From Sphingobacteriia bacterium (GTDB lineage Bacteria > Bacteroidota > Bacteroidia > Chitinophagales > Chitinophagaceae): a stretch of DNA of 64,000 bases. The notes beneath the pieces were generated by a model. That model ran no database searches and had not been told where the DNA came from. It was given only the letters and a program-made list of their open reading frames with translations. The stretch lies in assembly GCA_947452295.1 (NCBI GenBank), contig CANGCK010000010.1, positions 1 through 64,000 on the forward strand. The letters are read 5' to 3'. The position numbers and the translations under genes were made by a program. Of this stretch, positions 34,096 through 50,678 are shown in pieces; the stretch's first letter is position 1, and each line of letters starts with the position of its first letter.

Positions 34096-34127
34096 TTTGC
34101 TTTTATACTTTCTCCGTTGTAGTTTTG
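34096..34127 (+). promoter_or_regulatory. predicted Bacteroidetes-type promoter for his leader: TTTG (34096-34099) N20 TAGTTTTG (34120-34127)
   Basis: Exact match to TTTG-N19..21-TAnnTTTG, a few nt upstream of the leader ATG. Confidence 0.75.
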
Positions 34128-34135
34128 TTACACAA

Positions 34136-34186
34136 ATGATAATATTAATACATATACACCATCATCATTACTTGCCCATTGGGTAG
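34136..34186 (+). CDS. his operon leader peptide MIILIHIHHHHYLPIG*
   Basis: ATG ATA ATA TTA ATA CAT ATA CAC CAT CAT CAT TAC TTG CCC ATT GGG TAG; 5 His of 16 codons; upstream of hisG with attenuator helices. Confidence 0.88.
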   Translation: MIILIHIHHHHYLPIG

Positions 34187-34248
34187 GCTGTTGATGTGTA
34201 TATATGCTATACTAAACATTGAAGCTTACCATTAGGTAGGCTTTTTTT
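34152..34248 (+). promoter_or_regulatory. his transcription attenuator (leader RNA with alternative helices)
   Basis: AGCTTACC (34223-34230) can pair with GGTAGGCT at 34182-34189 (antiterminator) or with the copy at 34235-34242 (terminator); His codon run 34152-34164 can pair with 34192-34203. Confidence 0.85.
34222..34248 (+). terminator. attenuator terminator hairpin upstream of hisG
   Basis: AAGCTTACC-ATTA-GGTAGGCTT followed by T run. Confidence 0.85.
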
Positions 34249-34260
34249 ATTTTAATAATT

Positions 34261-37718: not shown

Positions 37719-38960
37719 ATGCGTATATCTTTTTTCCTATTTTCAATAATCATGTTGCAAGTGTCTTGTTGGGCACAATTTAACGATGTTGTGATAAAAA
37801 CACCGAATGGGTTTTCTACCACTAATGTGGCATGGGACTTTGGTCGTGTTCGTCATATTGTTGTAAATAGCAATGGTGATTTGTACATGAAGTTAGAAAA
37901 GCTATATAATGGTAAAGGCATTGTTAGATTACGAGATTTGAATAAGGATGGCAAAATGGACGATACATTGCGCTTTGGAAATTATGTTGGAACAGGGATT
38001 GCCATTAAAAATGGGTATTTATATGCATCATCTAATTCAGAAGTATTTCGTTATAAGTTAGATGCACAACAGAATATTGTTGATACAGAAAATCCAGAGA
38101 AAATTATTACAGGATTGGTAGATAAAAGACAGCATGCTTCTAAATCGATCACGTTAGACGAGGCAGGTAATATTTATGTAAACATCGGCGGGCCTAGTAA
38201 TGTATGTCAGGAACAAGATCGACAAAAAGGTTCTAAGGGAATGATGCCTTGTCCGCTTTTAGAAACTGCGGGTGGAATTTGGCAATTTAAAGCCGATAAA
38301 TTAAATCAGTCTTATGCTGAGGGAATTCGCTATGCAACTGGGATTAGAAATTGTGTAGGATTAGATTGGAACAAAGAGGTAAATGAATTGTTTATAACGG
38401 TACATGGAAGAGATATGTTATATCAAGATTACCCGACATTATATGATCAAAAACGAGGTGCTGAATTACCGTCAGAAACTATGTATATGGTTAAGAAAGG
38501 AGATGATTGTGGATGGCCTTATGTGCATTGGGATCATATTCAACATAAAAAAATATTGAATCCGGAATATGGCGGTGATGGGAATAAAACCGGTGTAGAA
38601 AATGCGATCAGTCCATTGATGGGTTTCCCTGGTCACATGGCTCCTAATGCTTTGTTGATTTATACGGGTAATCAATTTCCAGAAAAATACAAAAATGGAG
38701 CATTCATTGCTTTTCATGGAAGTTGGAATAGAGCGCCTGAAAACCAAGAAGGTTTTTATGTGGTATTTGTACCTATGAAAAACGGTAAGCCTACAGGCAA
38801 TTGGGAAGTTTTTGCAGATGGTTTTTCGGGAATGGAAAAAGTAACCAATTTAAGTAGTGCCAAGCATCGTCCATGTGGTTTGGCTCAGGGTCCGGATGGA
38901 GCTATTTATGTTTCGGATGATGTAAAAGGCCATGTTTGGAAAATTCAATACAATCAATAA
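37719..38960 (+). CDS. secreted PQQ-dependent sugar (sorbosone/glucose) dehydrogenase-like beta-propeller protein
   Basis: Signal peptide; ATGIRNCVGLDWN; GDDCGWPYVHWD; AFHGSWNRAP; GPDGAIYVSDD. Confidence 0.9.
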   Translation: MRISFFLFSIIMLQVSCWAQFNDVVIKTPNGFSTTNVAWDFGRVRHIVVNSNGDLYMKLEKLYNGKGIVRLRDLNKDGKMDDTLRFGNYVGTGIAIKNGYLYASSNSEVFRYKLDAQQNIVDTENPEKIITGLVDKRQHASKSITLDEAGNIYVNIGGPSNVCQEQDRQKGSKGMMPCPLLETAGGIWQFKADKLNQSYAEGIRYATGIRNCVGLDWNKEVNELFITVHGRDMLYQDYPTLYDQKRGAELPSETMYMVKKGDDCGWPYVHWDHIQHKKILNPEYGGDGNKTGVENAISPLMGFPGHMAPNALLIYTGNQFPEKYKNGAFIAFHGSWNRAPENQEGFYVVFVPMKNGKPTGNWEVFADGFSGMEKVTNLSSAKHRPCGLAQGPDGAIYVSDDVKGHVWKIQYNQ

Positions 38961-38972
38961 GACCAAAGCTAC

Positions 38973-39386
38973 ATGAGAAAAATAGTTGTAAGTATTGTAT
39001 TATTACTCGGATTTATAATGATGGTTCAGTCTCAAACAATAGATATAAAAACCAAATCCAGTATTTCTAGAGGAAAAATTGTATATGAAAAATATTGCCT
39101 TACCTGTCATCAAGCTGATGGTGGGGGCGTTCCAAGAATGAATCCCCCCATCATTCAAACAACTTATGTATCGGGGAGTAAGGAACGATTAATTGGGATT
39201 GTATTGAAAGGACTTAATCAGCCAATTGAAGTAAATGGTGATGAGTATGAAAATCCAATGGCATCGCATGCTTATTTGAGTGATTTGCAAATTGCAGATG
39301 TATTAACATTTGTACGAAATTCATTTGGCAATAAATATCCAGCTGTATTGCCTTCGGAAGTTAAAGTGGTAAGAGCAAAAAAATAG
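38973..39386 (+). CDS. secreted c-type cytochrome
   Basis: Signal peptide; single CLTCH heme motif; distal Met region NPMASHAYLSD. Confidence 0.93.
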   Translation: MRKIVVSIVLLLGFIMMVQSQTIDIKTKSSISRGKIVYEKYCLTCHQADGGGVPRMNPPIIQTTYVSGSKERLIGIVLKGLNQPIEVNGDEYENPMASHAYLSDLQIADVLTFVRNSFGNKYPAVLPSEVKVVRAKK

Positions 39387-39388
39387 TG

Positions 39389-40519
39389 ATGCAAAGAATT
39401 TTATTTATAGACAGAGATGGAGTGGTTTTAGAAGAGCCACCGCAAGATTTTCAGGTAGATAGTATTGCAAAAACAAGCTTTGTGAAAGGGGCAATTTCGC
39501 AGCTTTCGCATATCGCTTCGGATTTTGATTTTTATAAAGTGATGGTAACTAATCAAGATGGATTGGGAACTGATAGCTATCCTGAACATGATTTTCATCC
39601 ATATCATGATTTAATGGTACGAACATTGGCTGGAGAAGGATTTGTATTCGATGAAATGATCATAGACAGAACATTCGCATCTGAAAATAAACCTACTCGA
39701 AAACCGGGAACTGCTTTGTTAAATCATTTTATCAACAATGAAGCGTTTGATATTGCCAACTCTTTTGTAATTGGCGACAGATGGAGTGATATACAATTAG
39801 CTAAAAATTTGGGATGTAAAGCAATTTATTTGAAATCTGGATTGCATACATTAACAGCTGAACAAACGGATTTATACAAAGACACCATTGTGCTAGAAAC
39901 TACCGAATGGCAAGCTATTTATGCATTTCTTAAATTAGGCCTTAGAAAAGTAGCACATCAACGGAATACCAATGAAACGAGTATAAGTATATCACTTAAT
40001 TTAGATGGGTCTGGTAAATCTTCTATTCAAACAGGGATTGGTTTTTTTGATCATATGTTAGACCAGATTGCTCGTCATGGGAAAATGGATTTAAGTATTG
40101 AGACCAAGGGGGATTTACATATTGATGAGCACCATACCATTGAAGATACGGGTATTGCATTAGGAGAGGCCTTTTCATTAGCACTTGCCGATAAAAGAGG
40201 TATGGAGCGATATGGTTTTGCATTACCTATGGATGAATCGGAAGCAAAAGTGTTAATAGATTTTGGTGGAAGAAATTGGATGGTATGGAATGCCGTATTT
40301 AACCGAGAGAAAATAGGAGAGATGCCCACTGAAATGTTTTTTCATTTTTTTAAATCATTCAGTGATGCAGCCAAGTGTAACTTAAATATAGAATGTAAGG
40401 GTGATAATGAACACCATAAAATAGAGGCCATTTTTAAAGCTTTTGCTAAAGCAATACGGATGGCAGTAAAACGAGACCCATTATCAAATCATTTACCTTC
40501 AACCAAAGGTGTTTTATAG
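39389..40519 (+). CDS. hisB: bifunctional histidinol-phosphatase / imidazoleglycerol-phosphate dehydratase
   Basis: HAD FIDRDGVVLEEP N-term; GIGFFDHMLDQIARHG, DEHHTIEDTGIALG, EHHKIEAIFKAFAKA C-term. Confidence 0.96.
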   Translation: MQRILFIDRDGVVLEEPPQDFQVDSIAKTSFVKGAISQLSHIASDFDFYKVMVTNQDGLGTDSYPEHDFHPYHDLMVRTLAGEGFVFDEMIIDRTFASENKPTRKPGTALLNHFINNEAFDIANSFVIGDRWSDIQLAKNLGCKAIYLKSGLHTLTAEQTDLYKDTIVLETTEWQAIYAFLKLGLRKVAHQRNTNETSISISLNLDGSGKSSIQTGIGFFDHMLDQIARHGKMDLSIETKGDLHIDEHHTIEDTGIALGEAFSLALADKRGMERYGFALPMDESEAKVLIDFGGRNWMVWNAVFNREKIGEMPTEMFFHFFKSFSDAAKCNLNIECKGDNEHHKIEAIFKAFAKAIRMAVKRDPLSNHLPSTKGVL

Positions 40520-40996
40520 GCTTTTTTGACGTTTCCAAGTATCAGTTCTGCCAATAATTGAAAAGCCTATAAAGCCTCTAAGCTCAATTGTATTTTCATC
40601 TATCATAGTGATTTTACAACTGTATTCATTTCCCGAATTCGGATCATATACACTACCTTCTTTCCATGAATATTCTTTGATGAATTTGAGGTCTTTAACA
40701 TTAACCAATCCTAAAATTGGCCTGCTGCGCAATTTGGGCTCTTTGTTTTTTACATCTGTTTGAGGTTTGCCTGTAGTTGGGTCTATAGGTGTTTTTAACC
40801 ATACAATCTTCCCGAAATAATTATTCCCTTGCTTGTAAATTTGTACTAATCCATTTCCTGATCCAGGCTTCCACAAGCCTACAATTGCATCAGGATTGGG
40901 CGTATTCCCCAATACAGTTGTAGTACCCCAGAATAGTTGAGCCGTAAAACAAAATAATAGAAAAGTGCTTTTCTGGAGTAATGATTTCATAAACAA
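40514..40996 (-). CDS. DUF2147 domain-containing secreted protein
   Basis: IVGLWKPGSGNGLVQIYKQGNNYFGKIVWLK; LRGFIGFSIIGRTDTWKR. Confidence 0.88.
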   Translation of the reverse strand: MFMKSLLQKSTFLLFCFTAQLFWGTTTVLGNTPNPDAIVGLWKPGSGNGLVQIYKQGNNYFGKIVWLKTPIDPTTGKPQTDVKNKEPKLRSRPILGLVNVKDLKFIKEYSWKEGSVYDPNSGNEYSCKITMIDENTIELRGFIGFSIIGRTDTWKRQKSL

Positions 40997-41186
40997 TAGA
41001 TTATCTGGGGTTAATTATAATAGTAAATATACATAAAGCCTTAATAAGCTAACCATTATTTGTGATTAATTATTTTGTTTTTCCCTTCAGATTCCCCATC
41101 TTTGTAATAGTATAATTTAAACTTTAGCGGATGTGTTCTGTTGAACTTGTAGGAATTTGAGCAGAATTTTATAAAAAAAGTTTTAG

Positions 41187-41243
41187 ATGAAATTAATAAA
41201 CAAACATTGGTGGTGGCATACTGATTCCTTACTGGGGTTATAA
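41187..41243 (+). CDS. trp operon leader peptide MKLINKHWWWHTDSLLGL*
   Basis: ATG AAA TTA ATA AAC AAA CAT TGG TGG TGG CAT ACT GAT TCC TTA CTG GGG TTA TAA; three tandem Trp codons upstream of trpE attenuator. Confidence 0.88.
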   Translation: MKLINKHWWWHTDSLLGL

Positions 41244-41304
41244 TGTCATTGCTGCAATTCAATGTATATAATTTTAAAGCCCCGGATATAATCGGGGCTT
41301 TTTT
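41234..41304 (+). promoter_or_regulatory. trp transcription attenuator (alternative helices)
   Basis: GGGGTTATAATGT (41234-41246) can pair imperfectly with ATTTTAAAGCCCC (41271-41283), competing with the terminator stem. Confidence 0.75.
41276..41304 (+). terminator. attenuator terminator hairpin upstream of trpE
   Basis: AAAGCCCCG-GATATAAT-CGGGGCTTTTTT. Confidence 0.88.
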
Positions 41305-41336
41305 GTTGAAATAATTGAATAATATGCTAGATTAAT

Positions 41337-42749
41337 ATGAATAAAATAAAAGTAGAAACCGTTGTAAAAAAAATGCTGGGTGATGTGTATACTCCAGTAG
41401 GCATATACTTGCGTTTGCGAGATCGTTATAGAGATACTATTCTTTTGGAAAGTACCGATCACCATGTAGCTGAAAACAGTTATTCCTTTATTTGTATCAA
41501 TGCAATTGCAGGTATTGAAATTACTTCATCAGACAGTATTGAATTTAAATTGCCGGGTAAACCAGCTGAACATTTGAATATAAACAATACGAATAGCGTT
41601 GCTGGTGTGCTTTGGGATTTTATGCAAAATTTTTCGGTAAACGTAGGTATCGATAAAGCAATAAAATTTGCGCAAGGATTATATGGTTATACAAGTTTTG
41701 ATGCTGTACAATTTTTTGATAAGGTTCAGTTAAGTCAAAAATCAATTACAAGTATCCCCTTAATGCGTTACAGATTATATCAATATGTAATTGCTTTTAA
41801 TCATCATAAAGACGAGTTGTATGTATGTGAAAATAAAATTGAAGGGTTAGATGGAGATGTGGCTGCGGTAGAATCGTTGATTAAAAATAAAGATGTACCT
41901 GTTTATCCATTTAAATTAAAGGGCGAGGAACGATCTAACCTTACAAACGAAGCATATATAGATATGGTTCGAAAAGGCATTAAAAGTTGTTTACGTGGCG
42001 ATGTTTTTCAAATTGTATTGAGTCGTAGGTTTGAACAAGAATTTGTAGGTGATGAATTTAATGTATATAGAGCCCTTCGGAATATAAATCCATCTCCATA
42101 TTTATTTTTCTTTGATTATGGTGAGTATAAGATCTTTGGTTCTTCACCCGAATCGCAGTTGGTTATTCAACAACAACAAGCGGTAGTGCATCCTATTGCG
42201 GGCACATTTAAAAGAACCGGCGACGATAAAACAGATCGGGCTGAAGCGGAACGATTGTTAATGGATGCCAAAGAAAACGCAGAACATGTGATGTTGGTTG
42301 ACTTAGCACGGAACGACTTAAGTAGGGTTTGTACTGATGTTGAAGTGAAACAATACCGACAAGTGCAATACTACAGTCATGTTATTCATTTGGTGAGTGA
42401 AGTAATAGGTAAAGTGAAAGAAAACCAAAACCCATTTGAACTATTTGCAAAAACCTTTCCTGCCGGCACTTTAAGTGGTGCGCCAAAAATAAAAGCTTTA
42501 TCGTTAATAGATGATTATGAGCCTACTAACAGAAGTTTTTATGGCGGTGGTATTGGATTTATGGGGTTTGATGGAAGTTGCAATCATGCAATAATGATTC
42601 GTACATTTTTATCTCAACAAAACACTTTGATTTGTCAGGCCGGTGCAGGTGTTGTAGCGTTGAGTATACCTGAAAATGAGTTACAAGAAGTGAACAATAA
42701 ATTAAACGCATTGAAAACTGCAGCAAAAGCAGCTGAACTAATTCATTAA
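41337..42749 (+). CDS. trpE: anthranilate synthase component I
   Basis: FQIVLSRRFEQEF; PIAGTFKRTGDDKTDRAEAERLL; LVDLARNDLSRVC; PAGTLSGAPKIKAL. Confidence 0.95.
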   Translation: MNKIKVETVVKKMLGDVYTPVGIYLRLRDRYRDTILLESTDHHVAENSYSFICINAIAGIEITSSDSIEFKLPGKPAEHLNINNTNSVAGVLWDFMQNFSVNVGIDKAIKFAQGLYGYTSFDAVQFFDKVQLSQKSITSIPLMRYRLYQYVIAFNHHKDELYVCENKIEGLDGDVAAVESLIKNKDVPVYPFKLKGEERSNLTNEAYIDMVRKGIKSCLRGDVFQIVLSRRFEQEFVGDEFNVYRALRNINPSPYLFFFDYGEYKIFGSSPESQLVIQQQQAVVHPIAGTFKRTGDDKTDRAEAERLLMDAKENAEHVMLVDLARNDLSRVCTDVEVKQYRQVQYYSHVIHLVSEVIGKVKENQNPFELFAKTFPAGTLSGAPKIKALSLIDDYEPTNRSFYGGGIGFMGFDGSCNHAIMIRTFLSQQNTLICQAGAGVVALSIPENELQEVNNKLNALKTAAKAAELIH

Positions 42750-42761
42750 TTTTTTTTGAGT

Positions 42762-43361
42762 ATGAGAAAGATTTTAGTTTTTGATAATTATGATTCATTT
42801 ACTTATAACTTAGTACAGTTAGTATCGAGGATTTGCAAGGGCAATAGTATTATTGATGTGTATCGAAATGATGAAATATCATTAGATAAAGTGGCCGAAT
42901 ATGATAAGATTCTTTTATCTCCTGGACCAGGTATACCTTCTGAAGCAGGTCTATTACTTCCATTAATTAAGCGGTATGCAGCAAGTAAATCTATTTTAGG
43001 CGTTTGTTTGGGGCATCAGGCTATAGGGGAAGCTTTTGGGGCTGAATTATCTAATTTATCTAATGTTTACCATGGTATTGCTACGCCCATCAAAATAAAT
43101 AATGAAGAAATAGGTACAAAAAGTTATTTATTTAATGATTTGCCCAATGAACTTATTGTTGGAAGATATCATAGCTGGGTGGTAAATAACGCACATTTTC
43201 CTGCTGATTTAACTGTTACAGCCATTGATGATAACGGTTATATAATGGCACTTCAACATAAGCAGTATGATGTTCAGGGAGTACAATTTCATCCTGAAAG
43301 TGTATTAACACCTGATGGAGAAAAAATGCTCAATAATTGGCTAACTAGTGAATCAAAATAA
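42762..43361 (+). CDS. trpG: anthranilate synthase component II (glutamine amidotransferase)
   Basis: DNYDSFTYNLVQL; LSPGPGIPSEAG; GVCLGHQAIGEAFG; QFHPESVLTPDG. Confidence 0.96.
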   Translation: MRKILVFDNYDSFTYNLVQLVSRICKGNSIIDVYRNDEISLDKVAEYDKILLSPGPGIPSEAGLLLPLIKRYAASKSILGVCLGHQAIGEAFGAELSNLSNVYHGIATPIKINNEEIGTKSYLFNDLPNELIVGRYHSWVVNNAHFPADLTVTAIDDNGYIMALQHKQYDVQGVQFHPESVLTPDGEKMLNNWLTSESK

Positions 43362-43447
43362 GGAATATGAAAGACGTCATGAATCATTTCAAATGAAGAT
43401 GAGAGTAAAACGAATATCATTTGCATAAAATCAATACAAATATTTAG

Positions 43448-44440
43448 ATGAAAAAAATATTGCAATATTTATTTGAGCATAAAACGCTATCAAGACAACA
43501 AGCGAAAGAAATAATTATCAATATGTCGGCAGCACAATATAACGATGCTGAATTGGCAGCCTTTATTACTATTTTTTTAATGCGCAGTATTACCATTGAA
43601 GAGCTCAGTGGGTTTAGTGATGCATTGTTAGAATTATCTGTAAAAGTGAATTTTACGGGAGGCAAATTATTGGACATTGTTGGTACCGGTGGGGATGGAA
43701 AAAACTCTTTTAATATTTCTACCCTTGCTTGTTTTATAGTGGCTGGTGCCGGACAAAAAGTTACTAAACACGGTAATTATGGCGCTTCAACTATAAGTGG
43801 TTCATCTAATGTAATGGAACAAATTGGCTATACATTTAAAAATGATAATAATGCCTTACAGAAAGAATTAGATATTGCCAATATTTGTTTTTTACACGCG
43901 CCTCTTTTTCATCCTGCTTTAAAAATTGTTGGACCGATTCGAAAAAATTTAGGTGTCCGCACTTTTTTTAATATGCTTGGCCCCATGGTAAATCCTGCAA
44001 AACCCGATTTTCAATTAGTAGGTGTATATAATGTTGAAATGGCAAGAATATATAATTATTTATTGCAAGAGAAAGGGAAGGCCTTTACCATAATTCATAG
44101 TTTAGATGGATATGATGAAATTTCATTAACCAATGATACTAAAGTAATTTCTAACAACGGGGAAAAAATTATGACTCCTCATCAGTTAGGAAAATTAGTG
44201 GTTTCACCCAATGAAATACATGGCGGAAATACGGTTGAAGAATCTGCTAGCATATTTTTACGTATTATTAAAGGGGAAGGGACTAAAGCGCAAAATGCAG
44301 TTGTTTTAGCAAATGCAGCAATGGCTTTGTATTGTACGGGTACTTATGAAAATTATGAGACTGCATTTCAAGCAGCCGTTTTTAGTTTAGAAAGTGGTAA
44401 AGCATATGAAGGATTAAAAAAACTCATTGCTTTACAATAG
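43448..44440 (+). CDS. trpD: anthranilate phosphoribosyltransferase
   Basis: DIVGTGGDGKNSFNIST; KHGNYGASTISGSSNVME; LGPMVNPAKP. Confidence 0.97.
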   Translation: MKKILQYLFEHKTLSRQQAKEIIINMSAAQYNDAELAAFITIFLMRSITIEELSGFSDALLELSVKVNFTGGKLLDIVGTGGDGKNSFNISTLACFIVAGAGQKVTKHGNYGASTISGSSNVMEQIGYTFKNDNNALQKELDIANICFLHAPLFHPALKIVGPIRKNLGVRTFFNMLGPMVNPAKPDFQLVGVYNVEMARIYNYLLQEKGKAFTIIHSLDGYDEISLTNDTKVISNNGEKIMTPHQLGKLVVSPNEIHGGNTVEESASIFLRIIKGEGTKAQNAVVLANAAMALYCTGTYENYETAFQAAVFSLESGKAYEGLKKLIALQ

Positions 44441-44475
44441 CGTATATCAATTTAAATAATTACACACTTATTTGT

Positions 44476-45273
44476 ATGAATATTTTAGAAAAAATAATTG
44501 AACAAAAAAAAATAGAGGTAGGGGATAGAAAATTACTTAGGTCGATTGGTGATTTAGAAAAAGAAAAATATTTTTCTAAAGAAAACATCTCCTTAAAATC
44601 TTTTGTTTTACATCCCGAAAAAACAGGTATTATAGCAGAATATAAAAGACAGTCGCCTAGCAAAGGGATCATTAATCATCATTCTACTGTTGAAGATGTG
44701 ACTGCAGCTTACACTGTTAATGGTGCATCTGGGCTGTCGGTACTTACAGATGAATTATTTTTTGGCGGTACTATTTCTGATTTAATAAAAGCAACTGCAA
44801 ATAAAATACCCTTGCTTAGAAAAGATTTCATGATAGATGAATATCAATTGATTGAAGCAAAAGCATATGGGGCAGATGTAATATTATTAATAGCAGCATG
44901 CTTAACTCCTGCAGAAGTAAAAAAAATGGCAACAACAGCTAAGCAGCTTGGATTAGAAGTATTACTCGAAATACATAATGAACAAGAACTTGATCATATT
45001 TGTAATGAAGTTGATTTAGTAGGAGTAAATAACCGTAACCTTAAAAATTTTGAAGTAAAAATAGAAACATCATTGCAATTAATTTCACAAATTCCTGAAA
45101 GCAAACCTGCAGTTGCAGAAAGCGGTATAAATCAGGTTGAAACAATAATAACGCTTCAGAATGCAGGGTTTAAAGGATTTTTAATAGGCGAACATTTTAT
45201 GAAAAATGAACAGCCTGCCATTGCATTTGCAGATTTTGTAAATCAATTAAAATCCATGCAAGATGCGAATTAA
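44476..45273 (+). CDS. trpC: indole-3-glycerol phosphate synthase
   Basis: IIAEYKRQSPSKGII; LLRKDFMIDEYQLIEAKAYGADVILLI; VGVNNRNLKNFEV. Confidence 0.97.
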   Translation: MNILEKIIEQKKIEVGDRKLLRSIGDLEKEKYFSKENISLKSFVLHPEKTGIIAEYKRQSPSKGIINHHSTVEDVTAAYTVNGASGLSVLTDELFFGGTISDLIKATANKIPLLRKDFMIDEYQLIEAKAYGADVILLIAACLTPAEVKKMATTAKQLGLEVLLEIHNEQELDHICNEVDLVGVNNRNLKNFEVKIETSLQLISQIPESKPAVAESGINQVETIITLQNAGFKGFLIGEHFMKNEQPAIAFADFVNQLKSMQDAN

Positions 45274-45931
45274 GGTATGTGGCTTAACAACAGCAACACA
45301 GTTTGCAGAATTAGATGATTTAGGTGTTGATTTTGGTGGGTTTATATTTTATCCGCAATCCCCCCGATATGTATTCAATCATTTATCAACTGAAGATATT
45401 CGTCGTTTAAATGGAAGCAAAATTCATAAAGTAGGCGTTTTTGTAAATGAAACGATTGATCAGCTTTTAAAAATGGTGGATGAATGTGGTATTAACATGG
45501 TGCAATTGCATGGTGATGAAACCCCTCATTACTGTGAGAAAGTGGCAGAACATGTTACCGTAATTAAAGCTTTTAGGTTAAGGGATGAAGATGATGTACT
45601 GTGGAAGATAAAAGATTTTAAGGAAGTAGTTGATATGTTTTTATTTGATACTGCAACTCCTGCGTATGGGGGATCTGGTAAACGATTTAATTGGAACATA
45701 TTAGCGGGTATTTCAATAGACAAACCTTTTTTGTTAAGTGGGGGCATTGGCTATGATGATGTTGAATTAATAGAACAATTTTTGCGAAATGAAGTTTCAA
45801 AGGATCTTTTTGCAATAGATGTAAACAGCAAATTTGAGCTATCACCAGGGATAAAGAATATTTCTTTAATTGAAAATTTCCTACAACGTATGAACAGTAG
45901 TTTACAATTTCACTCAACCGTTAAAATTTAA
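45263..45931 (+). CDS. trpF: phosphoribosylanthranilate isomerase
   Basis: [36 protein letters not shown]. Confidence 0.96.
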
Positions 45932-45942
45932 AGCATTTATAT

Positions 45943-47124
45943 ATGATCGATTATCAACAACCCTCGGTACAAGGCTATTACGGACAGTTTGGTGGCGCTT
46001 ACATTCCAGAAATGCTACATGGCAATGTGGAAGAATTGCGCCAGCAATATTTGTCGATTATGCGAGAGCCCTCTTTCATCGAAGAATTTGAAGCATTATT
46101 AAAAGATTATGTAGGCAGGCCAACACCTTTGTTTTTAGCCGAAAGATTAAGTGCTGAATTTAATACCACAATTTATTTAAAGCGCGAAGATTTATGCCAT
46201 ACTGGTGCTCATAAAATTAATAATACAATTGGTCAGATTTTGTTAGCAGCTCGTTTGGGTAAGACACGTATTATTGCCGAAACTGGCGCAGGTCAACATG
46301 GTGTTGCAACTGCTACGGTTTGCGCACTTAAAGGTCTTTCTTGTATAGTTTATATGGGTGAAAAAGACATTGAACGTCAGGCTCCTAATGTGGCGCGAAT
46401 GAAAATGTTAGGTGCAACAGTTGTGCCAGCAACCAGTGGTAGTAAAACATTGAAGGATGCTACCAATGAAGCTATTCGTGATTGGATTAATCACCCAAAT
46501 GATACGCATTATATTATTGGTAGTGTGGTAGGACCTCATCCTTATCCGGATATGGTAGCTAAATTTCAAAGTGTTATCAGTAAAGAAATTCGTATTCAAT
46601 TGAAAGAAAAAACTGGTAGTGAATTGCCTACTCATGTAATTGCTTGTGTAGGTGGAGGTAGTAATGCTGCCGGCGCCTTTTATCATTTTTTAAATGAATC
46701 ATTAGTTAAAATTATTGCAGTTGAAGCAGCAGGTCATGGTGTTAATTCGGGTATGAGTGCGGCAACTTCTCAATTAGGAAAACCTGGAATTCTACATGGC
46801 AGTAAAAGTCTATTGATGCAAACAGCTGATGGCCAAGTGGTTGAACCACATAGTATTTCCGCAGGATTAGATTATCCTGGTATTGGCCCATTACATGCCA
46901 ATTTATTTGAATCAGGCAGAGCCACTTTTTTAAGTGCAACGGATGAAGAAGCGCTAGACGCCGCATTTCATATCAGTAAAACAGAAGGCATTATCCCTGC
47001 ATTGGAAACTGCACATGCTTTTGCTGTATTAGGAAAATTAAATCTGAAAAAGTCAGACGTGGTAGTTATTTGTTTGAGTGGCCGGGGCGATAAAGATTTA
47101 GCAACATACATGAACTATTTATAA
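45943..47124 (+). CDS. trpB: tryptophan synthase beta subunit
   Basis: [47 protein letters not shown]. Confidence 0.98.
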
Positions 47125-47173
47125 TGATTACATTACGGAGGTATTGTTAATCTTTAATATTAAACACAATTCT

Positions 47174-47953
47174 ATGTCTAGAATACAAGATATATTTAAA
47201 CAAAAAAAACAAAAAGTACTCAACGTATATTTTACTGCTGGATATCCTGCATTAAATGATACATTAACTATTATGCAATCATTGGCATTGGCGGGTGTTG
47301 ATATTATTGAAATTGGTATGCCATATAGTGATCCACTTGCCGATGGACCAGTTATACAAGATAGTAGTTCAAAAGCACTAGCAAATGGCATGAGTATTCA
47401 ATTGTTGTTTGAACAGTTGAAACAATTTCGAAAAGTTGATACATTAACGAATACCGGTGTTGTATTGATGGGGTATATGAATCCGGTGTTGCAATATGGT
47501 TTCGAAAAATTTTGCGCAGATGCCGCAGCTGTTGGTGTTGATGGGTTGATATTACCCGATTTGCCAGAGTATGAATTTGAACATGAATATGGTGCTATTA
47601 TTAAACAACATGCACTCGACTTTATCTTTCTTGTAACACCTGAAACTACACCTGATAGAGTCAATAAATTAGATGCATTAAGTTCAGGATTTTTATATGC
47701 AGTCAGTTCATCTGCAACTACCGGTGGTGATAAAGATTTTTCTGAAGTAGAAATTTATTTACAAAAATTGCAGCAAATGAATTTGAACAATCCTGTAATG
47801 GTGGGATTTGGTATTAAAGATAAGTTAACTTTCGAGTCGGCTTGTAAATTCGCAAATGGCGCTATAATAGGTAGCGCATTTATTAAAGAATTGAATAACA
47901 ATAATAAAGTGGATGTAACCGCCAACAATTTTGTACACGCTATTCTTCGTTAA
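47174..47953 (+). CDS. trpA: tryptophan synthase alpha subunit
   Basis: YFTAGYPALNDT; IEIGMPYSDPLADGPVIQ; GLILPDLP. Confidence 0.96.
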   Translation: MSRIQDIFKQKKQKVLNVYFTAGYPALNDTLTIMQSLALAGVDIIEIGMPYSDPLADGPVIQDSSSKALANGMSIQLLFEQLKQFRKVDTLTNTGVVLMGYMNPVLQYGFEKFCADAAAVGVDGLILPDLPEYEFEHEYGAIIKQHALDFIFLVTPETTPDRVNKLDALSSGFLYAVSSSATTGGDKDFSEVEIYLQKLQQMNLNNPVMVGFGIKDKLTFESACKFANGAIIGSAFIKELNNNNKVDVTANNFVHAILR

Positions 47954-47971
47954 CGATTAAATATTTATCTA

Positions 47972-48562
47972 GTGAATTTGGTAATCATTAAATACAATGC
48001 AGGTAATATACAGTCTGTTTTATTTGCTCTTGAAAGAATTGGTGCAACCGCTACAGTAACAGATGATTTAGACATTATTCAATCTGCTGACAAAGTGATT
48101 TTCCCAGGTGTTGGCGAAGCAAGTACAGCAATGAACTATTTAAAATCCAAAAAAATGGATCAATTGATAGTTAAACTAAAACAACCGGTGTTAGGTATTT
48201 GCTTGGGGATGCAGTTGATGTGTAAATATAGCGAGGAAAACAATACCGATTGTTTAGGTATTTTTGATGAATCAGTGAAAAAGTTTATTGCATCATCCAA
48301 TGAAATTAAAATACCTCAAATTGGATGGAATAACATTTACCATTTACAATCACCTTTGTTCCATCAAGTTCAAGAAAACAGCTTTTGTTATTTTGTTCAT
48401 GGCTATTATGCTTCATTGGGTGAACATACTATTGCGACTACTAATTATGGAATTGAATACAGTGCGGCTTTAAATAAAAATAATTTTTACGGCACTCAAT
48501 TTCATCCCGAAAAAAGCGCTTCAATCGGTGAACAAATTCTACAAAATTTTATAAACATTTAA
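47972..48562 (+). CDS. hisH: imidazole glycerol phosphate synthase subunit HisH (GTG start)
   Basis: IKYNAGNIQSV; VIFPGVGEASTAM; GICLGMQLMCKYSEE; YGTQFHPEKS. Confidence 0.95.
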   Translation: MNLVIIKYNAGNIQSVLFALERIGATATVTDDLDIIQSADKVIFPGVGEASTAMNYLKSKKMDQLIVKLKQPVLGICLGMQLMCKYSEENNTDCLGIFDESVKKFIASSNEIKIPQIGWNNIYHLQSPLFHQVQENSFCYFVHGYYASLGEHTIATTNYGIEYSAALNKNNFYGTQFHPEKSASIGEQILQNFINI

Positions 48563-48566
48563 TCCA

Positions 48567-49283
48567 ATGCAAATTATACCTGCAATTGATATTATAGAGG
48601 GTAAATGCGTTCGGCTTACCCAAGGTGATTATGCACAAAAAAAAATTTATAACGAGCATCCATTAGAAGTTGCTAAAATGTTTGAAGACGCAGGTATTAC
48701 CAGGCTTCATTTGGTTGATTTAGATGGTGCTAAAAAAGGAGAAGTGCAAAACTGGAAAGTTTTGGAATCAATTGCTTCAAATACAAAGTTAGTAATTGAT
48801 TTTGGTGGTGGAATAAAGCGGGAAACTGATTTGAAAATTGTATTAAATGCAGGTGCAGCTATGGCCACCATTGGGAGTTTAGCAGTAAAAAATGCTGATC
48901 TGTTTATAGATTGGGTGAGCACATATGGATCTGATCGATTTTTTTTAGGTGCAGATGTAAGAGATGAAAAGATAGCAGTGGGTGGGTGGTTAGAAACAAC
49001 AGATGTTACGATTGTTGATTTTTTAAAAAATTATTTGCAAAAAGGGATCAACCATGTTTTTTGTACCGATATAAGTAAAGATGGCAAATTAGAAGGCCCA
49101 TCGATTGAATTGTATCAAAATTTGATTCATCAATTGCCCGAATTAAATTTAGTAGCTAGTGGCGGCGTAAGTGCATTAACAGATTTAGTTGCGCTGAAAA
49201 CAATCGGATGTACAGGGGTAATTATCGGTAAAGCCATATATGAGGGTAGAATTTCACTATTGGATTTGTGTGAATTTATTTAA
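48567..49283 (+). CDS. hisA: phosphoribosylformimino-5-aminoimidazole carboxamide ribotide isomerase
   Basis: IIPAIDIIEGKCVRLTQGDY; LHLVDLDGAKKG; CTDISKDGKLEGPS; GVIIGKAIYEG. Confidence 0.97.
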   Translation: MQIIPAIDIIEGKCVRLTQGDYAQKKIYNEHPLEVAKMFEDAGITRLHLVDLDGAKKGEVQNWKVLESIASNTKLVIDFGGGIKRETDLKIVLNAGAAMATIGSLAVKNADLFIDWVSTYGSDRFFLGADVRDEKIAVGGWLETTDVTIVDFLKNYLQKGINHVFCTDISKDGKLEGPSIELYQNLIHQLPELNLVASGGVSALTDLVALKTIGCTGVIIGKAIYEGRISLLDLCEFI

Positions 49284-49305
49284 TGATTAAAAAATAAATA
49301 CTATT

Positions 49306-50064
49306 GTGCTTACAAAAAGAATCATTCCTTGTTTAGATATTAAAGATGGGAGAACAGTTAAGGGAATTAATTTCGAAAATATTCGTGATGCAGGAGATCC
49401 AATTGAATTAGGTGCTTTATATGCCGCACAGGGCGCCGACGAGTTGGTTTTTTTAGACATAACAGCCACCAATGAGCGTAGAAAAACATTGAGTGAATTG
49501 GTTAATAATATCTCTCATCACATTAATATCCCATTTACTGTTGGTGGTGGAATATCATCAGTTGAAGATGTACGTGTTTTACTACAAAATGGTGCTGATA
49601 AAATTTCAGTGAATACTTCAGCATTTAATAATCCAGCATTGCTAAATCAACTGGCATTGGAATTTGGTTCGCAATGTATTGTATTGGCCATCGACACTAA
49701 AATGGAACCCGATGGCAACTGGTATGTTTATTTAAATGGTGGGCGGATAAAAACAAATGTACTTTGTAATGATTGGGCAAGGCAAGGGGTTGATTTAGGT
49801 GTAGGGGAAATATTATTAACCTCCATGAACAATGATGGAACCAAGAAAGGGTTTGCATTAGATATTACCAGACAATTAGCCACTAGTTTGCCAGTACCAG
49901 TAATTGCTTCGGGTGGTGCAGGTACAATGGACCATTTTGTGGATGTTTTTGAAGATGCAAGGGCAGATGCAGCATTAGCTGCCAGTATTTTTCACTATAA
50001 AGAAATTGAAATACCCGTTCTTAAACAATATCTTTCTAAAAAAGGCATTTTTATGCGATTTTAA
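49306..50064 (+). CDS. hisF: imidazole glycerol phosphate synthase subunit HisF
   Basis: [53 protein letters not shown]. Confidence 0.97.
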
Positions 50065-50081
50065 TTCCTGAAATTTGTATT

Positions 50082-50678
50082 ATGACTATTGATTTTGCAA
50101 AATATCCAGATGGACTAGTGCCTGCTGTAATTCAAGATTATTCCACCCATAAAGTATTGATGTTGGGTTTTATGAATGAAGAAGCCTATCAGCTAACCAA
50201 TACATTGGCTAGAGTAACTTTTTATAGTAGAAGTAAACAGCGATTATGGACAAAAGGCGAAGAAAGCGGTAATTTTTTAGAAGTGCGCTCAATTGCTGTA
50301 GACTGTGATAATGATAGTTTATTAATAAAAGTACATCCCTTAGGACCCACTTGTCATACGGGTGCCGATACTTGTTGGGATGAATCCAATCATTCTGATA
50401 ACTTTTTAGAATACCTGGAAGAAATCATTCAATTGCGTAAACAGGCTGGTGTAGAGGAGTCCTATGTAGCTAAAATGTTTGCCAAAGGATTAAATAAAAT
50501 TGCCCAAAAAGTGGGGGAGGAAGCCGTAGAAATGGTAATTGAGGCAAAAGACAACAATGAAGAGCTGTTTTTAAATGAATCTGCTGATCTTCTTTTCCAT
50601 TATTTGCTCTTACTTAACGCAAAAGGCCATAATTTAGCGGAGGTTTTAACAATACTTAAAAAACGTCATTCCAAATAA
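50082..50678 (+). CDS. hisIE: bifunctional phosphoribosyl-AMP cyclohydrolase / phosphoribosyl-ATP pyrophosphatase
   Basis: MLGFMNEEAYQLT; SRSKQRLWTKGEESGN; GPTCHTGADTCW; GEEAVEMVIEAKDN. Confidence 0.96.
   Translation: MTIDFAKYPDGLVPAVIQDYSTHKVLMLGFMNEEAYQLTNTLARVTFYSRSKQRLWTKGEESGNFLEVRSIAVDCDNDSLLIKVHPLGPTCHTGADTCWDESNHSDNFLEYLEEIIQLRKQAGVEESYVAKMFAKGLNKIAQKVGEEAVEMVIEAKDNNEELFLNESADLLFHYLLLLNAKGHNLAEVLTILKKRHSK

Follow-up and report, generated by a model that had tools for sequence, protein, structure and literature searches.

The trp genes in the 64,000-nt stretch of Chitinophagaceae DNA analyzed here (the window) are very probably controlled by a ribosome-mediated transcription attenuator, as modeled from the leader sequence, its conservation, and its predicted folds. 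Unexpectedly, the operon under its control is a trp-his supraoperon, trpEGDCFBA-hisHAFI, and we favor, at a probability of roughly 0.6, a model in which its leader would sense His as well as Trp. For Chitinophagaceae in general, such dual sensing is probable, if unproven. The relevant features of the window are as follows:

34136..34186, + strand: His leader peptide MIILIHIHHHHYLPIG (stop) before hisG, with a terminator (34221-34244, followed by a T run) and, 12 nt before the ATG, a promoter
40514-40996, - strand: short reverse-strand gene upstream of the leader
41073..41104, + strand: Bacteroidota-type promoter, TTTTG (-33-like, 41073-41077) and CATCTTTG (-7-like, 41097-41104), 26 nt apart; motif and spacing as in relatives
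41105..41186, + strand: long 5' UTR, including ~75 nt absent from L032, the nearest relative, and from other relatives
41187..41243, + strand: leader peptide ORF MKLINKHWWWHTDSLLGL (stop), from translation; kept in relatives
41204..41265, + strand: predicted 1:2 pause hairpin, Trp-His codons paired with sequence just 3' of the leader stop, -20.5 kcal/mol
41208..41216, + strand: three Trp codons in tandem (TGG TGG TGG), primary sensing codons; conserved
41217..41219, + strand: His codon CAT immediately 3' of the Trp run, possibly a second sensing codon
41232..41285, + strand: predicted antiterminator 2:3, 41232-41239 paired with 41278-41285, -15.3 kcal/mol with a ribosome stalled at the Trp/His codons
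41276..41304, + strand: predicted intrinsic terminator 3:4 with T run; compensatory stem changes in relatives
41337..47953, + strand: trpE, G, D, C, F, B, and A ORFs; gene order equal in relatives
47972..50678, + strand: hisH, hisA, hisF, and hisI ORFs directly after trpA

Promoter and trp-his gene order

The promoter was recognized by aligning the upstream sequences of relatives, in which a -7-like CATATTTG (TTTG) is positioned 11 nt upstream of the leader ATG, with a TTG another 26-27 nt upstream. Promoters of both the window and its relatives fit the Bacteroidota consensus TAnnTTTG / TTTG (PMC7366714). A first-pass annotation of this DNA had reported no full promoter, a statement that the Bacteroidota-type elements overturn; a scan of the window for sigma-70 promoters performed no better than on shuffled sequences. 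The promoter of the window is ~80 nt upstream of the leader ATG, and the ~75-nt extra stretch between them, which is absent from L032 and occurs as a single copy in the genome, could be a matter of assembly.

Gene names in the window were assigned from family knowledge and are in that sense presumptive. The order is hisG, hisD, hisC, a PQQ-type dehydrogenase-like gene, a cytochrome c-like gene, hisB, the short reverse gene, the leader, trpEGDCFBA, and hisHAFI. The gap between trpA and hisH measures ~20 nt, and a scan of this gap detected no promoter-like site before hisH. Since hisG is preceded by a separate His leader and hisHAFI are located behind the trp genes, the his pathway is split between a unit under the His leader and a unit led by the trp genes.

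Leader peptide and predicted fold competition

The 18-codon ORF with three TGG codons described in the first-pass annotation was upheld by translation. Another His codon is found at 41205-41207, and His codons thus occur on both sides of the Trp run. When short ORFs with three tandem Trp codons were counted on both strands of the window, the leader was the only one, where an order-1 Markov model predicts 0.033 per 64 kb, i.e., the arrangement is well above chance. The leader has no Shine-Dalgarno-type start. Letters and coordinates of the proposed terminator, AAAGCCCCGGATATAATCGGGGCTTTTTT at 41276-41304, proved to be accurate, the quoted letters of the segments at 41234-41246 and 41271-41283 agreed with the sequence, and trpE was indeed found downstream of leader and terminator. 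Although a convincing 1:2 pause hairpin had been reported as missing, one is predicted at 41204-41265. Folding of the region 41165-41312 as a whole is more stable than that of any of 200 shuffled versions (z = -3.9).

To judge conservation, trpE-upstream regions were compared at ~180 loci, nearly all of them from Chitinophagaceae. The first-pass annotation had named loss of the Trp run among orthologues as evidence against attenuation; the run was found to be conserved, within a leader core of WWWHTNSxRGL, and the leader frame and Trp codons are kept while the surrounding DNA changes. A terminator was detected in 176 of 178 loci, and the Trp codons pair with bases just after the stop codon (1:2) in 157/176. 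Pairing of the leader tail with the 5' arm of the terminator averaged -13.8 kcal/mol (shuffled tails, -7.2), and tails swapped between loci reached -12.5, almost equal to the native value. Since swapped tails pair almost as well, the tail is a shared element, and support for antiterminator pairing comes less from lineage-specific covariation than from complementarity and conservation. In RNAalifold consensus structures, compensatory changes fell mainly in the terminator stem, while those in the 1:2 stem were one-sided. One clade (L041-L047, L049-L051, L136, and L137) has a single Trp codon followed by His, e.g., MKRNYTNNGWHFISDKG (stop), and retains both terminator and antiterminator.

Under the proposed mechanism, RNA polymerase would pause at the 1:2 hairpin during translation of the leader. 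With plentiful Trp-tRNA, the ribosome would proceed to the stop codon and cover segment 2 (41232-41246), allowing the terminator to form. With Trp-tRNA in short supply, it would stall at TGG-TGG-TGG and leave segment 2 free to pair with the 5' terminator arm, so that transcription would continue into trpE. The His codon lies within the same stall window as the Trp run, so a shortage of His-tRNA would be expected to have the same outcome.

Stall positions were modeled by folding, with the leading edge of the ribosome assumed to lie 12 nt away from the first base in the A site. For the window, stalls with the A site at any codon from Lys to Thr+2, both His codons included, are predicted to keep the antiterminator whole, whereas A-site positions from Asp+3 onward destroy it. 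Among relatives, the antiterminator mostly starts 10-16 nt from the first base of the His codon, and a stall at this codon is predicted to leave the antiterminator free. When a ribosome was placed on the codon following the Trp run, before synthesis of the terminator 3' arm, 2:3 was predicted to form in 95% of loci, and when it was placed on the stop codon, the 3:4 terminator was predicted in 98%. In equilibrium folds with a stalled ribosome, the terminator still wins in 97% of loci, suggesting that the switch must act during transcription, like other attenuators. The leader with its control codons, the terminator, the mutually exclusive antiterminator, and the 1:2 hairpin that characterize a trp-type attenuator are thus all present; leader translation we infer, and pausing is predicted. 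The first-pass proposal of Trp attenuation is therefore supported by the Trp run, the terminator, and the alternative pairings kept in ~180 relatives, but it was incomplete in that it missed the hairpin, the promoter, the trp-his supraoperon, and the His codon.

The His codon and linkage to his genes

Among Chitinophagaceae, His directly follows the Trp run in 83/86 his-linked operons vs. 24/44 unlinked ones (Fisher P = 9 × 10^-9), and the evolution of the His codon is correlated with that of his linkage on a TrpE tree (Pagel P = 1.5 × 10^-5). Under the Pagel model, the rate of His loss is 0.13 in linked lineages vs. 1.88 in unlinked ones, a ~14-fold difference, and the number of Trp codons showed no such effect. 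Both CAT and CAC are used for His, and the lineage with one Trp codon still has Trp-His. An independent-pairs test restricted to supported branches yielded five pairs, too few for significance. Retention of the codon in operons that contain his genes is likely due to selection for His sensing.

The association was also followed in other families. A class-level sample outside of Chitinophagaceae had His in 4/4 linked vs. 4/25 unlinked leaders (P = 0.003). Family f16 was then chosen for a prospective test because both operon types occur there, and His was found in 17/21 linked vs. 14/23 unlinked of its newly examined leaders (P = 0.19), a non-significant difference in the same direction, with four linked leaders lacking His after the run and 14 unlinked leaders having it. 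This outcome weighs against generality of the association. Correlated evolution was not significant in f16 alone (Pagel P = 0.29). As an after-the-fact explanation of the weak trend, co-transcription of trp and his genes is less sure in its linked operons L256 and L258, in which ~2.2 kb separate trpA from hisH; in L258, two further, widely spaced genes occupy this interval. These genes (L258 7761-9766) resemble a DAHP synthase and an aromatic amino acid hydroxylase. Pooling of the three family strata gave a CMH P of 1.8 × 10^-9, and all families together gave a Pagel P of 7.9 × 10^-8; the pooled association is driven mainly by Chitinophagaceae.

The weak association in f16 would fit a leader that responds to Trp only, an explanation that we consider possible but less likely than not. 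CAY would then be kept for its role in 1:2 pause pairing (GGCAY with RUGCC/RUGUC), and its association with his genes would stem from shared ancestry and from a general relaxation that followed splitting of the operon. Bases of this codon do pair in the 1:2 stem, the third often with the third (last) base of the stop codon, which provides a reason at the RNA level to keep CAY. Unlinked operons also need the stem, yet in them the His position can be taken by Gln, Leu, Pro, Ser, Asn, or Tyr, and His is kept in the divergent linked leaders L041, L049, L050, L185, and L187 despite a shifted or absent pairing partner. As for relaxation, other leader positions are likewise lost faster in unlinked lineages (N+3, P = 5 × 10^-4; RG, P = 0.005), so this process may supply part of the His signal; nevertheless, the association of His with linkage persists within strata of tail conservation. 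Considering these results, we judge codon meaning to be a likelier cause of His retention than stem constraint, and both may act.

Two other explanations, each very improbable, would dispense with ribosome stalling altogether. The terminator could simply mark the 3' end of an upstream unit next to a chance Trp-rich ORF, given that hisB and the reverse gene at 40514-40996 are located upstream; however, it is a + strand terminator, the leader is the sole + strand gene directly before it, and an ORF of this kind is rarely expected by chance (see above). This explanation was refuted by the conserved leader, the promoter, and the competing folds. A leader bound by protein or tRNA could also be envisioned, since a TRAP-like site or a T-box controls trp genes in other systems, but an Rfam search of the window found neither a T-box nor another family at gathering score, and translated Trp codons and the leader frame are maintained amid changes in the flanking DNA.

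Returning to an attenuator that reads both amino acids, the odds are slightly better than even that it came to do so as operons fused downstream and that the His codon decays where the fusion is broken, in which case the leader would record operon architecture across the family. If the His codon is sensed, this would be a natural case, represented by dozens of lineages suited to examining it, of a regulatory sensor rewired by one codon upon operon fusion or split, and hisHAFI, although apart from the His-leader-controlled hisGDCB, could remain coupled to histidine supply. With one or two His codons, the leader would be a weak sensor beside the His run before hisG.

Relation to known leaders

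The Bacteroid-trp RNA motif (RF01692) is a described trp leader of this phylum (Weinberg et al., 2010; PMC2864571). Both it and the present element are trp leader RNAs of Bacteroidota in which a leader containing Trp codons precedes the trp genes. Against this model, the score of the window is 21.9 bits, compared to a gathering threshold of 49, and 0/20 Chitinophagaceae loci match it; the two matching loci that were found are trp-only operons with WWWK or WWWS leaders. An Rfam search of the window returned nothing at gathering threshold, and 20 relatives likewise fell below all thresholds. The earlier description of the element as unannotated is accurate in this sense, but its type is known in the phylum.

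The best sub-threshold Rfam match of the window was the E. coli-type Trp_leader, RF00513 (25.1 bits, E = 0.0035, gathering 41), which has the same order of leader peptide, 1:2, 2:3, 3:4, and terminator. The window differs in its three Trp codons plus His, its lack of a Shine-Dalgarno-type start, and its trp-his operon; its relatives differ further in having a promoter close to the ATG. In E. coli trpL, an Arg codon directly follows two Trp codons, in the place taken by His here. In the leaders of the thr and ilv operons, one peptide includes codons for several amino acids made by the operon; those amino acids come from one branched pathway, whereas Trp and His come from separate pathways that share PRPP. 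Signs of leader-peptide attenuation at amino-acid operons were reported in a transcriptome study of Flavobacterium psychrophilum (PMC9723704). In the literature covered by our search, nothing relevant was found on Trp-His leaders or on trp-his supraoperons. The core finding is therefore a new lineage of a known attenuator type, with the probable His input as its new element, and Chitinophagaceae gain a clear trp attenuator not detected by present RNA models.

Several minor observations concern the surrounding genes. The His leader region (34097-34252) has a promoter of the form TTG...TAGTTTTG, 1:2 and 2:3 pairings, and a terminator, and H-rich leaders also precede hisG in three relatives (L038, L048, and L054). 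The genes between hisC and hisB (37719-39386) resemble a PQQ/glucose dehydrogenase and a small cytochrome c, and a cytochrome c-like gene precedes hisB in the same few relatives. Lastly, a second trpE-like gene of the genome, at G000:C43:10164-10721 (L002), has 37% identity over the C-terminal half and probably encodes another chorismate-using enzyme.
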